64,000 nucleotides of DNA from Acidobacteriaceae bacterium KBS 146 (lineage in GTDB: Bacteria; Acidobacteriota; Terriglobia; Terriglobales; Acidobacteriaceae), in contig JHVA01000001.1 in the NCBI GenBank assembly GCA_000688615.1, positions 1,984,001 to 2,048,000 on the forward strand. Reading direction: 5' to 3'. The position numbers were made by a program, and so were the translations under genes. The notes beneath the pieces are model-generated. The model was not told where the DNA came from. It worked only from the letters and a program-made list of their open reading frames with translations, and searched no databases. Shown piece after piece: positions 32,441 to 38,475 of the stretch (position 1 is its first letter; each line of letters begins with the position of its first letter).

Positions 32441-33214
32441 CTATTCGGTCCACGCCTCGTGTACGAGACGGGCTGCTCCCTTTTCGATGGTTCTGATCCT
32501 GCCATCCCGCATATGGATAATGCGATCGGCTATTTGTGCGGCCTCAGGATTATGCGTAATCATCAGCACGGTTTGATTGAGTTCCCGACTGGAGCGGCGC
32601 AGCATATCCAGCACCGCCTCGGAGTTCTTGGTATCCAGGTTGCCGGTTGGTTCGTCAGCCAGCACAATCGCGGGACGAGAGATCAGAGCCCTGGCAATGG
32701 CTACCCGTTGCTGCTCCCCGCCTGACAACTCGCTCGGCCGGTGATTCAGTCTTCCCTTGATCCCCATCAGATCGGCCAGATGGTCCAGCAATGGACGGTC
32801 GAGCGGCGTTTTTTCCTGGGCTCCCAGGTTGGCGATATCGTGAGCGATCTCAATGTTGCCCATCGCGGTGAGTGTGGGCAGAAGGTTGAATCGCTGAAAC
32901 ACGAACCCGATCTTCGCTCGACGCATGCGGGTTCGTTCGATATCCGACATCCGCGAAAATTCGGCTCCATCGATATACAGAGAGCCCGAGGTAGCCTGCG
33001 TCAGCCCGCCGAGAATATAGAAGAGCGTCGACTTTCCAGACCCCGAGGGCCCAACGATCGCGACAAACTCCCCGGGGTCAGCGGTGAATGAGACATCGGA
33101 CAATGCGGTCACTGCCAGTTTCCCGGAATGGTAGACCTTGCCGAGTTGCCGGGCTTCGATAATTGGTTTCGTTACGCTTGGCCGGTCCGGAGGTGAGGAA
33201 GTTGGGGTCGCCAT
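32441..33214 (-). CDS. ABC transporter ATP-binding protein (MacB/LolD type)
   Basis: The 257-residue ATPase has Walker [10 protein letters not shown] (near residue 55), the signature [15 protein letters not shown], Walker B 'IVLADEPTG' and the switch His in 'MITHNPE'. The arrangement with '[18 protein letters not shown]' is that of the MacB/LolD/FtsE branch, which extracts lipoproteins or exports peptides and antibiotics with FtsX-type permeases. No permease lies next to it; one such permease is at 59621, too far to claim pairing. The first Met is used. It is divergent from the small membrane protein gene at 33250. Confidence 0.9.
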
Positions 33215-33249
33215 GGGTTACCTTTGAGTTTATCGTGACCGGAGCAGGT

Positions 33250-33855
33250 ATGGGCTGGGCTGAGCTTTTGCTGTTAGTTTTGGTGGGCTGGACGATCGTA
33301 GGCGCTTTTGGCGTCGCCGCCTCGTACAGACGAGGGGAACAGACAAAGGCAGGGCGACACCTGGCGTGGATTGGCGGCGTCTGGGTTCTCTATCTCGTCA
33401 CTTTGCTCGGTATCTCTGTGGCTGCAGCGCCTCGATCAATCAAACCGGCGCAAGAGCAGTGTTTCCATTCGCTTTGTTTTGCCGTTCTCGACGTGAAGAG
33501 CATGCCTGGCTACCTCGCAGGCCCCGGCGAGCATCTCCTGCGGCTCTCCATCCGCATGACCAACCACTCCAGAAAAGATCCGAAGGGAGACAGCCACCTA
33601 ACCGCGTATCTGGTTGACTCCCGCAATCGACACTGGGATGAGATTCCTGGACTTGAGGGAATACGGCTCTCAACGACGGTTCCCGCGGACAAATCTCTGA
33701 TCAGCACACCCGTGTTCAAAGTGGCGAGCGATGCCAAGGATCTTCGTCTTGTTTTTACCCATGGCCGCCGCCTTCCTTATCTGTTGCTGTTAGGCGACCG
33801 GGACAGCCTGCTGCACCCTCCAACCTTTGTCCCTCTCGGCGTTCCAAATGAGTAG
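33250..33855 (+). CDS. small membrane-anchored protein, unknown function
   Basis: The 201-residue protein starts at ATG 33250, behind GGAG. Two transmembrane helices occupy the N-terminus ('WAELLLLVLVGWTIVGAFG' and 'WIGGVWVLYLVTLLGISVA'), and the rest is extracytoplasmic. It contains two close cysteines (QCFHSLCFAVLDVKSM) and a beta-rich domain ('LLRLSIRMTNHSRKDPKGDS') that looks like a small Ig-like fold of the DUF4352 type. I cannot assign a role. It is divergent from the ABC gene, whose start lies 35 bases away. Confidence 0.55.
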   Translation: MGWAELLLLVLVGWTIVGAFGVAASYRRGEQTKAGRHLAWIGGVWVLYLVTLLGISVAAAPRSIKPAQEQCFHSLCFAVLDVKSMPGYLAGPGEHLLRLSIRMTNHSRKDPKGDSHLTAYLVDSRNRHWDEIPGLEGIRLSTTVPADKSLISTPVFKVASDAKDLRLVFTHGRRLPYLLLLGDRDSLLHPPTFVPLGVPNE

Positions 33856-34192: not shown

Positions 34193-34215
34193 AAAAAAAC
34201 CCTCTTGAAAGAGGG
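34193..34215 (-). terminator. orphan terminator on the minus strand
   Basis: A CCCTCTT/AAGAGGG stem is preceded on the plus strand by seven A residues. This makes a textbook intrinsic terminator for minus-strand transcription, although no minus-strand gene lies upstream of it. Confidence 0.5.
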
Positions 34216-34306: not shown

Positions 34307-35878
34307 GTGAGAAAAATTGTTAGTACAACCGCACTTGTTGCAGCCTTAGTCATCTCTGGACAGGCGTTTGGCCAGAGCAAATCGAATACGTCCACGGAAA
34401 AGAAGCAGACCAAGACTCGTGCCCTTCGTGACAACCAGATGGATAACGTCACCGCCGCAGGCGAAGAGAACTCCGCGCTTGCCGCCAACAACTCGACCGT
34501 CAATGAGAACAACACAGGAAGCGTGTCGCTTTCCGGCAGCGCTCTCAATGCGGCCAAGGGCATCAATATTGTCAGCTCTTCCGATGCGACCGTCGCCAAC
34601 GGGGTCAATGTCTATAACGGCAGCCTGACCACGCAAGGCAACAGCGGCAGCGCTAATGTCAGCCAGAGCAACGATGTAATGCAGGAGAGCGGCGGAAACG
34701 CCACGCTCAGCGGATACAAGAGAGGCGCCAACTCGCAGCTCAACACATCGAGCGCGTCGGATGTGACCAGCAGCAGCTCATCCTCCGAGAGCCTCAACGC
34801 ATCCATCAATCACACCTCCAACCACACCAGGACCTCATCGCTTACCGAAACGGCGAACAGCAGCTCGTCCAAGAGCGCCAACTCCAGCAAGAACGCGGCT
34901 CAACAGGCCAGCGCAAGCAAGAACTCCACCTCTTCCATGACCTCGTCCGCGTCGAACTCGGCCAGCAAATCGGCCTCGTCGACGGATTCCTCCGCTTCCA
35001 ACAATGCCCAGAATGCGAGCAATGTGAAGTCGGCGTCATCCAGCGATAACTCGGCCGCGACCAAGAGCGCAACCAGCAACGCTACCTCCTCAGCTAGTTC
35101 CAGCGGAGCCACGGCCAGCGCGAATGCTCCCGACGGAAGCTCCACTTCGGTCGGAAACTCTGCCTTTAACAACAGCTCTTCCAGCAATGGAGCGACCTCT
35201 ACGACAACAGGCAACGGAGCTAACAACCTCTCCGCATCGAAGGGCGGATCGGCAAGCAACTCCACCACGAGCAACTCCGGAACCGCGAGCAACACGTCGA
35301 GCAGCGCTGACCAGTCCGCCTCCGCCAATAACTCTGCGTCGAATGTGAGCTCCGCATCGAACGCAGCCAAGAACGCGAACTCGGCCTCGAACTCCGCTTC
35401 CAACAACGCTGCGCAGAACGCGGATTCCTCGAACAAGAGCAAGTCGCAACAGAGCGCAAACAGCTCCAATAGCGCAAGCTCGGATGCCACACAGTCGGCT
35501 AAGAACGATTCTTCTTCCAGCACCGACACGCACTCCACCAGCTCGAGCAATTCAACTTCGGCGAGCCTGGCGACTAACGAAACAAAGTCCAAGTCCAATC
35601 ACAGCGTTAAGTCCTACAGCAAGGTTTATAACGTGCAGGGTGCCGTCAGCTTCGATGACGCCAGCGCGCATAACATCGCCGTAGATGGCTCGACGGTAAA
35701 CGCGACCAATAACTACACCGTATCGCTGGCTGGCTCAGCGCTTGCCAACGCAACCGCAATGAACATCGTCAATGCAGCCGGCGGCATGGTTGCAAACGGA
35801 GTCAACGTAGCCCGGACGTCGAACATGAACTCGACCCCGACGCTCTCGCAGTCCAATAGCATCAGCCAGGTCCGCTAA
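34307..35878 (+). CDS. FapC-like secreted Ser/Asn/Ala-rich protein (candidate functional amyloid)
   Basis: The 523-residue protein starts at GTG 34307, behind GGAGG with a five-base spacer. A signal peptide ends near residue 22 (QAFG). Next comes a basic linker and then L40-RDNQMDNVTAAG52, a double-glycine-like leader motif. Residues of about 60-130 and 445-523 are two related modules, each with NNxxxVSLSGSAL or NNYTVSLAGSAL, then INIV/MNIV, then VANGVNV and a final xSQSN motif. Between them lies a low-complexity stretch of some 300 residues made almost wholly of Ser, Asn, Ala, Thr and Lys. I see no Cys or Trp. The end modules and central linker recall FapC of Pseudomonas, but this is a fold-level comparison, not a proven homology. 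It heads a four-gene run with a C39 peptidase and a barrel. Confidence 0.6.
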   Translation: MRKIVSTTALVAALVISGQAFGQSKSNTSTEKKQTKTRALRDNQMDNVTAAGEENSALAANNSTVNENNTGSVSLSGSALNAAKGINIVSSSDATVANGVNVYNGSLTTQGNSGSANVSQSNDVMQESGGNATLSGYKRGANSQLNTSSASDVTSSSSSSESLNASINHTSNHTRTSSLTETANSSSSKSANSSKNAAQQASASKNSTSSMTSSASNSASKSASSTDSSASNNAQNASNVKSASSSDNSAATKSATSNATSSASSSGATASANAPDGSSTSVGNSAFNNSSSSNGATSTTTGNGANNLSASKGGSASNSTTSNSGTASNTSSSADQSASANNSASNVSSASNAAKNANSASNSASNNAAQNADSSNKSKSQQSANSSNSASSDATQSAKNDSSSSTDTHSTSSSNSTSASLATNETKSKSNHSVKSYSKVYNVQGAVSFDDASAHNIAVDGSTVNATNNYTVSLAGSALANATAMNIVNAAGGMVANGVNVARTSNMNSTPTLSQSNSISQVR

Positions 35879-35977
35879 GCGCGGGCCAGCGTATTGCGAG
35901 GGTCCGGCGCGCATTCCCTCCATGCCGGATCCCCGCAGGCGCTTCCCTCGCTCCTTCACTGGATTCAAGGAGTTAAT

Positions 35978-36427
35978 ATGCAACGAATTCTCGTGATGGC
36001 GGTCCTGACCATGTTGGGGTCAGCAGGCCTGGCCGTAGCTGGCGCACAGACGCCGGCACGGACTCAGGCGTCGACACCAAGCCGCGTGCAAACAAAGGCG
36101 AAACCTCTGAGTGACGATGCGCTCGACAAGGTCACGGCCGGAACCGTTTCGGCCGGGATCTCCGACGGCGTTGTTCGCTTTCAGGGGCAGACCCCAACTG
36201 CAAACGGCCTGGTCTCGAGCACAGGTTCGCTCGCTATCCAGAGCGGACCCATTGGTGGAATCACGATGGGCACGCTCAGCCTGAACGGTAACGCGGAACA
36301 GAACCTGAGTTCTCTGGTCAACATCAATGCGGTGAACTCGAAGATCAACGTCCTGCTTAACCTCAACGTCAACATCAACTCAACTGTGAGCACCCTGACA
36401 CAGTCGAACTTGAATGGAAAACCCTGA
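35978..36427 (+). CDS. small secreted FapB/FapE-like protein
   Basis: The 149-residue protein starts at ATG 35978 behind AAGGAG. It has a signal peptide (MQRILVMAVLTMLGSAGLAV), a basic linker and the motif L44-SDDALDKVTAG55, the same pattern as in the preceding gene. The mature part is Asn/Ser/Val-rich, built from short strands ('SLVNINAVNSKINVLLNLNV') and ends in TLTQSNLNG, close to the TLSQSNS ending of the neighbour. It has no Cys. A minor amyloid, nucleator or secreted companion (like FapB or FapE) is the likeliest role. Its stop overlaps the C39 gene start by one base. Confidence 0.55.
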   Translation: MQRILVMAVLTMLGSAGLAVAGAQTPARTQASTPSRVQTKAKPLSDDALDKVTAGTVSAGISDGVVRFQGQTPTANGLVSSTGSLAIQSGPIGGITMGTLSLNGNAEQNLSSLVNINAVNSKINVLLNLNVNINSTVSTLTQSNLNGKP

Positions 36428-37125
36428 TGATCCTCCCTTCTGCCTGGTTCCGGCTCTGGTGTAGAGCAGCCGCGCTCGTTGTGGCGAGCTGCTTGTTCTT
36501 CCCGGCATCTGCGTCCTCTCAAACCAGAGAAGACGCAGATGCACAGGGAGGCAAAAAAATACGCAGCTTGAAAGAGATTCGCGGCGAAGGTGTCGTTCGC
36601 CAGAGATGGGATATGAGCTGCGGGGCGGCGGCGCTTAGCACTCTGTTGACCTACGAATTCCGAGACAATACTCCGGAGACAGCCATCGTCGTCTGGATTC
36701 TTCATCGTGTCGATCCGATCAAGGTTCGCGCACGTGGAGGATTCTCTCTTCTTGACCTCAAACGTTTCGCACAGGCCCGCGGGTATCGCGCCGAAGGCTA
36801 TGCCGGAATGTCGATCGAAGAGCTTGCATCGCAGAAGACGGCTGTCATCGTACCCATCCGACTGAAAGGCTTTGACCACTTCATCGTGGTGCGAAAGATC
36901 GCTGCAGGAAGTGTCATTATCGCTGATCCGGGCTTCGGGAACCTCACCATGAGAGTCGAGCGGTTTCAGTCTCTCTGGAAGGAAGGCATCGTCTTCATCG
37001 TGCACCCCCCGACCGACCTCATGCTGACCGAACAGAAGCCCAACATCGCGTCTCGCACGATTCCCGACCCCAGCATCATCCAGCGCGAGATTGGAGTCGC
37101 GATTCCACCCAATTACCTCTACTGA
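36427..37125 (+). CDS. exported C39-family cysteine peptidase (FapD-like)
   Basis: The 232-residue protein has a signal peptide of about 32 residues and a C39 peptidase domain. Q59 and C65 stand in 'VVRQRWDMSCGAAALSTLL', H151 in 'GFDHFIVVRK' and D167 in 'VIIADPGFGNLTM', matching the Cys-His-Asp triad and oxyanion Gln of bacteriocin-processing C39 domains. It lacks the ABC transporter parts, so it works alone in the periplasm like FapD. The probable substrates are the two proteins encoded just upstream, which carry a double-glycine-like site. The start overlaps the preceding stop (TGATG), implying coupled translation. Confidence 0.8.
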   Translation: MILPSAWFRLWCRAAALVVASCLFFPASASSQTREDADAQGGKKIRSLKEIRGEGVVRQRWDMSCGAAALSTLLTYEFRDNTPETAIVVWILHRVDPIKVRARGGFSLLDLKRFAQARGYRAEGYAGMSIEELASQKTAVIVPIRLKGFDHFIVVRKIAAGSVIIADPGFGNLTMRVERFQSLWKEGIVFIVHPPTDLMLTEQKPNIASRTIPDPSIIQREIGVAIPPNYLY

Positions 37126-37146: not shown

Positions 37147-38475
37147 ATGCAGACCATTCCGTTGAAACGCTTTTGCACAACACTCTTCCTCTGCTGCCTT
37201 ATTTGTTTGGCGCTGAAAACCGAGGCTCAGGAACGCAGCACCCAATCTCAACCTCAGCTCCAGCAACGTGCTCAGCCATCGAACCAGCCCATGTCAGAGC
37301 AGGAAGCCCTGCTGAATGCGGTTAATCAGAGGCTGAACGATGCGCTGCGAGAGCGGGATGCCATCATCCGCAACCTTCTGGAGCGTGTCCAGGAACTGGA
37401 GTGGCGCGTCAACGGTGGATTTACGACTTCGCCCAAAGACCTTGTCGCAGCTAAAACAGTCTCGGCTCCCGCTCCCGCTCCGCGCGCTGGAGCGGCGGCA
37501 GCCGTAACCTCCGTAGTGACGAACTCTGGTTACGACGCCGAAGAGCGACAGGCGAGCCAGGCCCTCGACCAGGCGCTGATCGTCCGCGGCGGTCTGCTGC
37601 TTCCGTCCGGGACGGTTGAGCTCGACAATACGACCTCTTATTTCAGCTCTACTACGGACCGGATCAACATCGACGGTTTCGCCCTGCTGCCGGTGCTGGT
37701 TGTCGGCGATATCGCTTCCCAGCGCGTCCGCAAGGATCTCTTGCTTCCGACCTTCTCGGCCCGGATGGGGCTTCCCTACAAGCTGCAGTTCGACACCTAC
37801 ATTCCCTACGGGTATCAGTTGAATCGCACTGTTGACGTCAACAATACCCAGACGTCTCAAAGCACCTTTGGGCTAGGCGACATTACCTTCGGCTTGTCAC
37901 GACAGCTGACTCTGGAACACGGCCGTATGCCTGACTTGCTGGCCAATGTGCGCTTCAAAACCACAACCGGCATTGACAGCTTCAATCTCAACAGCAGCCA
38001 GACTGCCCTTGGCACAGGGTTCTATGCCGTCCAAGGCAATCTGACAGCAGCCAAGTCGAATGATCCGGTGGTCTTTTTCGGCAATCTTTCTTACACCGCA
38101 AACCTGAATGGGACCCACTCCATTCCGGCGAACGATCCGGACAATCCCGGCCTGATGATCCCGGGGCACTTCAAACCTGGCGATTCGGTGGGTTTCCAGC
38201 TCGGCTCCATTCTGTCTCTGAATCCGGAGACCTCGATGACGATCGGCTGGGACCAACGATTCACTCGCGCGACAACACTCAATGACCAGACCATCCCCGC
38301 ATCGTTCCTCGTTGAAGGATCCTTGCGGCTTGGCGCCTCGTATCTCTACGCTCCAGGCCGAACGATCGACCTCAGCTTCGGCGTCGGCCTCACGCCAGAT
38401 ACCCCAAATCTGCAGTTCTCCGTCGGCCTTCCCATTCGGCGTGCGCTCTGGCACCCAAAGAACGGCGTCCATTGA
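37147..38475 (+). CDS. outer-membrane barrel with N-terminal coiled coil (FapF-like)
   Basis: The 442-residue protein has a signal peptide (about 29 residues), a Gln-rich stretch and a predicted coiled coil at roughly residues 53-85 ('ALLNAVNQRLNDALRERD', 'IIRNLLERVQELEWRVNG'). An Ala/Pro linker follows, then a transmembrane beta-barrel from about residue 140 to the end, with alternating aromatic strands. This order is that of FapF, the trimeric channel that exports Fap amyloid subunits. The family is also annotated as a general outer-membrane transporter, so the name rests on context. It lies 21 bases after the peptidase gene, in the same operon. Confidence 0.65.
   Translation: MQTIPLKRFCTTLFLCCLICLALKTEAQERSTQSQPQLQQRAQPSNQPMSEQEALLNAVNQRLNDALRERDAIIRNLLERVQELEWRVNGGFTTSPKDLVAAKTVSAPAPAPRAGAAAAVTSVVTNSGYDAEERQASQALDQALIVRGGLLLPSGTVELDNTTSYFSSTTDRINIDGFALLPVLVVGDIASQRVRKDLLLPTFSARMGLPYKLQFDTYIPYGYQLNRTVDVNNTQTSQSTFGLGDITFGLSRQLTLEHGRMPDLLANVRFKTTTGIDSFNLNSSQTALGTGFYAVQGNLTAAKSNDPVVFFGNLSYTANLNGTHSIPANDPDNPGLMIPGHFKPGDSVGFQLGSILSLNPETSMTIGWDQRFTRATTLNDQTIPASFLVEGSLRLGASYLYAPGRTIDLSFGVGLTPDTPNLQFSVGLPIRRALWHPKNGVH

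Follow-up and report, generated by a model that had tools for sequence, protein, structure and literature searches.

The four-gene cluster

The window is a stretch of 64,000 nucleotides from the genome (5.0 Mb) of a soil bacterium of the Acidobacteriota. The organism belongs to the Edaphobacter group, and its nearest named relatives are Edaphobacter and Granulicella. Four genes running in the same direction encode a large subunit, a short subunit, a C39 peptidase and an outer-membrane pore. There is no gene besides the peptidase between the subunits and the pore. The features are listed below; signal peptides were judged by eye and by simple rules.

34307..35878, plus strand: large subunit, 523 aa, GTG start; open reading frame, position conserved in 22 loci
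34307..34372, plus strand: predicted Sec signal peptide of the large subunit, MRKIVSTTALVAALVISGQAFG before Q; hydrophobicity and A-x-A type rules
34373..34423, plus strand: basic linker (K/R-rich) of the large subunit; sequence and length (7-24 residues) vary among orthologues
34424..34459, plus strand: C39-type leader of the large subunit, -12 to -1, LRDNQMDNVTAA, G next; genus alignment and matrix
34487..34684, plus strand: imperfect repeat 1 of the large subunit, ending SQSNDVMQ; local alignment to repeat 2, BLOSUM62 score 118
35684..35869, plus strand: imperfect repeat 2 of the large subunit, ending SQSNSISQ; local alignment to repeat 1
35978..36427, plus strand: short subunit, 149 aa; conserved beside FapD across phyla
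35978..36046, plus strand: predicted Sec signal peptide of the short subunit, …GLAVAGA before Q; simple rules
36047..36106, plus strand: basic linker (K/R-rich) of the short subunit; 6-26 residues among orthologues
36107..36142, plus strand: C39-type leader of the short subunit, -12 to -1, LSDDALDKVTAG; genus alignment and matrix
36427..37125, plus strand: FapD-type exported C39 peptidase with Q59, C65, H151 and D167; profile searches, alignment and model
37147..38475, plus strand: FapF-type outer-membrane pore, 442 aa, with an N-terminal coiled-coil-like segment; NF058560 8e-26, FapF structure 5O65 5.7e-18

The mature part of the large subunit is composed of 29% Ser, 16% Ala and 15% Asn and carries an imperfect repeat of 60-odd residues at either end. 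Neither subunit matches any Pfam or NCBIfam family, and the NCBIfam models of FapA, FapB, FapC and FapE match neither of them. We propose a FapC-like role for the large subunit. The amyloid label for the two proteins is suggestive only and is drawn from their composition, the imperfect repeats and the Fap-like neighbours.

The peptidase is the sole match to Pfam PF03412 in the genome (2.6e-17). It bears a signal peptide of its own and lacks a transporter domain, as expected from the preliminary description, which had placed an exported C39 peptidase without a transporter next to the subunits. Among NCBIfam models it matches FilB with 3.3e-33 and FapD (NF058616) with 2.7e-30 and 105 bits, against a curated cut-off of 330, and the pore stays under the 700-bit cut-off of the FapF model, so that all NCBIfam matches of peptidase and pore lie below the curated equivalog cut-offs. 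The structural model of the peptidase (pLDDT 82.6) is closest to C39 domains, with ComA first (Z 18.7, rmsd 1.8 over 131 residues) and PCAT1 and the leader-bound domain 6MPZ next. In a sequence alignment, the PCAT1 groove residue I59 falls near a conserved GFSLLDLK at residues 105-112; that its Lys contacts the Asp residues of the leader is only a guess. Given matches below the equivalog cut-offs and subunits without a family match, the cluster is Fap-like but not a canonical Fap operon. It is not bacteriocin-like either, and this reading was rejected because the peptidase is not partnered by an ABC exporter and because the pore belongs to the FapF type. A lone ABC ATPase is encoded upstream of the cluster on the opposite strand (32441-33214).

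Also upstream lies the gene of a conserved membrane protein of about 200 aa whose C-terminal part is exported (33163-33855). It has no family match, and at least two relatives have it in front of the cluster too (L061, L087). The gap that separates this gene from the cluster holds a minus-strand stem-loop with a T-run (34200-34215), which has no Rfam match and is not above shuffles. We looked for an upstream regulatory RNA and found none, and the promoter and terminator scan gave nothing above shuffles.

The leader in the two subunits

The consensus for C39 leaders is L(-12)xxxE(-8)L(-7)xxxxG(-2)G(-1), where the peptidase also reads position -4 and a helix extends over -10 to -4 (PMC6959990). 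In the large subunit LRDNQMDNVTAAG begins at residue 40 of 523 (codon 40 at 34424), and in the short subunit LSDDALDKVTAG begins at residue 44 of 149, both in frame. Counted with the last residue as -1, the window leaders contain L-12, D-10, M/L-7, D-6, V-4, A-2 and A or G at -1. This is the published register, with hydrophobic residues at -12, -7 and -4 and a small-small pair at -2/-1. E(-8) is missing from the window leaders. GG, GA or GS at -2/-1 is absent from the Edaphobacter clade, which uses A-G, A-A or A-S instead; GG is present in related FapD clades. The preliminary description had located the motif at these two residues, behind a signal peptide and a basic linker, and had likened it to the leader of C39-processed bacteriocins. 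All of this holds: a signal peptide of the Sec type and then a linker rich in K and R precede each motif. The orthologue alignment of the VTAAG form puts A at -1 and G at +1, so that the large subunit is predicted to be cut after VTAA or, one over, after VTAAG, and the exact bond is uncertain by this one residue. For the short subunit, the structural model (pLDDT 57) weakly suggests a short helix over -10 to -3. The genome-wide check for the motif used DNA patterns: the degenerate pattern has four matches, two being the window subunits and the other two lying outside exported frames, and a narrower pattern requiring ATG or CTG at -7 matched one subunit only.

Among 61 genomes searched, a close FapD homologue occurs at 17 loci in 16 genomes of the same genus. 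The short subunit is found in exactly those 16 genomes and in no other genome of the genus. Both subunits carry the leader at 22 of 22 non-redundant related loci (44/44 proteins), including two large subunits that fall outside the regular expression and read LLDNQMGNVTAG and LRDNQMDNLTAAG. D(-10), T(-3) and A(-2) are kept in all genus proteins, and -12, -7 and -4 are always hydrophobic. That L, D, V and the small residues at the end should be conserved had been put forward as the check on the motif; they are, both in these 44 proteins and across phyla. Identity amounts to 66-73% in the leader versus about 30% in the six residues just before it. The ratio pN/pS is 0.24-0.28 in the leader versus about 0.6 in the linker, and rises after the leader to 0.65-0.78 in the large and 0.39-0.44 in the short subunit. 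The leader is an island of constraint behind a variable linker.

FapD homologues and leaders beyond the genus

When GTDB genome contigs were scanned with the FapD alignment, 52 loci emerged, and genome searches added loci in the Acidobacteriota and in the order of Marinobacter. Exported open reading frames beside FapD in Deltaproteobacteria and Pseudomonadota have the leaders LSDAEMETVAAG, LSDEQLDAITAG and LDDATLHTITAG. FapE-like proteins have ISNEELDSQRGG, IHDQELEQHRGG and LTDQELSELRGG, and FilA-type proteins MDDAALSGITGQ. A matrix trained on the 35 distinct genus leaders only and applied at a threshold of at least 12 bits detects the leader in 30/250 Sec proteins near FapD elsewhere, versus 0/262 control Sec proteins and 0.1% of shuffles; a relaxed pattern from the published C39 constraints finds it in 67/209 near FapD versus 13/270 controls (Fisher p=8e-16), and the strict published consensus in 4/209 versus 0/270, all these counts being rougher than those from a curated proteome because open reading frames and signal peptides were called heuristically. 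Mature parts that are unrelated to one another follow the same leader, namely those of the large and short subunits, of FapE, of FilA/DUF6160 and of small peptides.

Small peptides with a Sec signal and a GG/GA-type leader occur at L065:6361-7116, at its counterparts L066 and L067, and at L036:5576-5839, with the leaders ELSVAAMEEIVGGLSRR, LISDDDLEAVVGALS and PLTDSQLATLSGMG. They adjoin a stand-alone C39 peptidase, exported or anchored, together with membrane proteins, and no FapF homologue was found near these C39 proteins. The peptides are possibly bacteriocin-like and show the same logic of Sec signal plus leader outside Fap. In Methylococcales, three tandem small Sec proteins with TAG- or SAG-type leaders stand beside a FapD-like gene (L117:462-2458, L121:68-2488); both contigs end at these arrays. 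FilA-type proteins (DUF6160, a family of unknown function) carry MxDxALxxxTGQ after the signal peptide and lie beside FilB/FapD-like peptidases (L171:5292-5744, L172, L175, L176 and others), and this motif is likely their cut site. At L097:5403-5912, a FapD-like gene adjoins that of a short exported protein whose leader is of the VEAKG type. FapF-like proteins at L086:4353-5561 and L101:6731-7951 show a helix-turn-helix-like segment directly after the signal peptide.

The catalytic Q, C, H and D are invariant in 55/55 FapD homologues. FapD and FapF homologues are nearly always neighbours; a 2018 review had already noted adjoining fapD and fapF homologues in five further phyla (PMC6173800). In the tree of the 55 FapD proteins, a single branch with support 93 sets the AG flavour of the leader (27 rows from several phyla) apart, TGQ occupies one branch, and GG/Gx makes up the remainder. 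Flavour changes twice on this tree, which is the minimum, versus a shuffled mean of 16.6. With the Edaphobacter clade cut to one row there are two changes versus 14.2, and the result is the same with observed leaders only, where L073, L170 and L173 are dropped. Agreement between flavour and FapD clade is what a specificity match predicts, but since subunits and peptidase share an operon, shared inheritance explains part of it, and with genes that travel together it does not amount to independent co-evolution. Marinobacter iranensis (G442) contains three FapD homologues of different clades in one genome (L167, L088, L170). GG and AG leaders occur there at their own FapD loci, and the FilB-like locus has no leader gene in the stretch fetched. 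This organism is a natural test bed for leader specificity.

For Pseudomonas, Rouse et al. reported that the active-site Cys of FapD is essential for secretion and that FapD is active in the periplasm; in the UK4 system, C38A abolishes FapC secretion. By mass spectrometry FapE alone lacked N-terminal peptides. At that time, in 2017, the FapD target was called unclear, the Fap proteins were said to lack canonical C39 sequences, and cleavage in the FapF linker was suggested (PMC5557850), a suggestion found again in a review of December 2025, which names FapE and FapF as the proteins that FapD is 'thought to' process (PMC12822426). Three loci have a FapD above the curated cut-off; behind its signal peptide, their FapE (NF058559, 7e-104) reads ELKDQELATLRGR or ELKDQELAQLRGK, followed by Y. 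No other part of the 14 FapE-like proteins is as well conserved as this block, in which R-3 and G-2 hardly vary and which is followed by F or Y at +1. FapB and FapC have no such block. Judged by its sequence, Pseudomonas FapE carries a degenerate, disguised C39 leader, which we suggest was overlooked because Arg or Lys takes the place of the final Gly. A leader on FapE and none on FapB and FapC is consistent with the published mass spectrometry. No published description of this leader was found in a search of literature that is neither behind subscription nor in preprint form. Pseudomonas FapA holds a similar block, ELSDSDFAGVTSG. We considered FapA as a FapD substrate and rejected it, since mass spectrometry reports it as unprocessed; the motif may therefore not suffice for cutting.

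Proposed maturation and relation to known systems

We consider it very probable that both Fap-like subunits contain a C39-type leader between Sec signal peptide and mature part, and that periplasmic FapD cuts it before the subunit passes FapF. The subunits would first be exported by Sec and cleaved by signal peptidase. The leader, as a short helix with its hydrophobic residues at -12, -7 and -4, would then dock into the groove of the periplasmic FapD homologue, which would cut behind the two small residues, A-G or A-A, at -2/-1. The trimmed, unfolded subunit would leave through the FapF pore and assemble outside. The comparisons establish the genes, the intact catalytic residues, the conservation and register of the leader, its recurrence near FapD in several phyla and the agreement of flavour with clade. 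From these we infer that the subunits are cut, at which bond and when in relation to passage through FapF, and that an amyloid results. The two-step maturation suggested in the preliminary description, Sec first and periplasmic C39 trimming second, is the reading best supported by these comparisons.

An uncut docking or export signal, which binds FapD as a chaperone or the periplasmic domain of FapF and is retained on the secreted subunit, would also be conserved. Some C39-like domains of the HlyB type bind without cutting (PMC5557850), and the near-constant neighbourhood of FapD and FapF would fit. Such a signal is nevertheless improbable: it does not account for the invariant catalytic residues, for the C38A phenotype, or for conservation that reaches the -3/-2/-1 residues at the predicted bond. 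The leader is also not simply a FapF export signal, since FapB and FapC traverse FapF without it and similar leaders stand beside C39 proteins for which no FapF homologue was found nearby (L036, L065-L067). It is very unlikely that the segment simply belongs to the mature amyloid and is kept for fibre structure, while FapD has its real target elsewhere. The suggested cleavage of the FapF linker in Pseudomonas provides a candidate for such a target, but FapD could cut FapF too, the same segment is N-terminal on unrelated mature proteins, and the large subunit shows little conservation on either side of it. Chance resemblance is hardly credible: the two window proteins do share one operon and exported N-termini are biased in composition, but the segment is under purifying selection between weakly constrained flanks and recurs in other phyla with near-zero controls.

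For a leader that is cut by FapD, two roles of the pro-segment can be envisaged. It may restrain fibre formation in the periplasm, or it may bring the subunit to a FapD-FapF complex, and we tentatively favour the latter because FapD and FapF are nearly always neighbours. Tentatively, and with less than even confidence, we extend this to a broad, unrecognised class of Sec proteins with a second, C39-type leader. The leader would be an address tag to FapD at the FapF pore, and FapD plus FapF would form a split, ATP-free outer-membrane counterpart of the peptidase-containing transporter in which cutting is coupled to release. Without FapD activity the biofilm amyloid of Pseudomonas is not secreted, and our comparison supplies a candidate recognition sequence. 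Read outward from the Acidobacteriota, it places a C39-register leader behind the Sec signal of exported FapD partners, names likely FapD substrates and predicts their cut sites. It also widens the range of Fap-like secretion, which would take in the Acidobacteriota and further groups whose subunits are unrelated.

The exported C39 peptidase FapD and the pore FapF of the Fap system are homologous to the window genes, and Pseudomonas FapE has its degenerate leader in the same place as the window subunits. Unlike in Pseudomonas, with its leaderless FapB and FapC, the leader is found in both subunits here; RGG or RGR in Pseudomonas is replaced by AG, the repeats are of a different type, and the window operon contains no FapA, no FapB/FapC repeat proteins and no FapE family match. 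The Fil system (FilA/FilB/FilC; DUF6160) likewise combines an exported C39 peptidase with a FapF-like protein, FilC, and its FilA-type proteins have a signal peptide followed by …MDDAALSGITGQ. It differs in its TGQ-flavoured leader, which belongs to a separate branch of the FapD tree, and in mature parts that are unrelated by family search. With PCAT1, ComA and LahT the window system has in common the C39 fold, the catalytic residues and the leader register -12/-7/-4/-2/-1. In PCAT and bacteriocin export, however, the C39 domain is fused to or encoded beside an ABC exporter and cleavage is cytosolic, whereas the window peptidase is exported and stands alone, has a FapF-like partner in place of an ABC exporter, and would act on substrates that take Sec first and present AG or AA at the predicted cut site.
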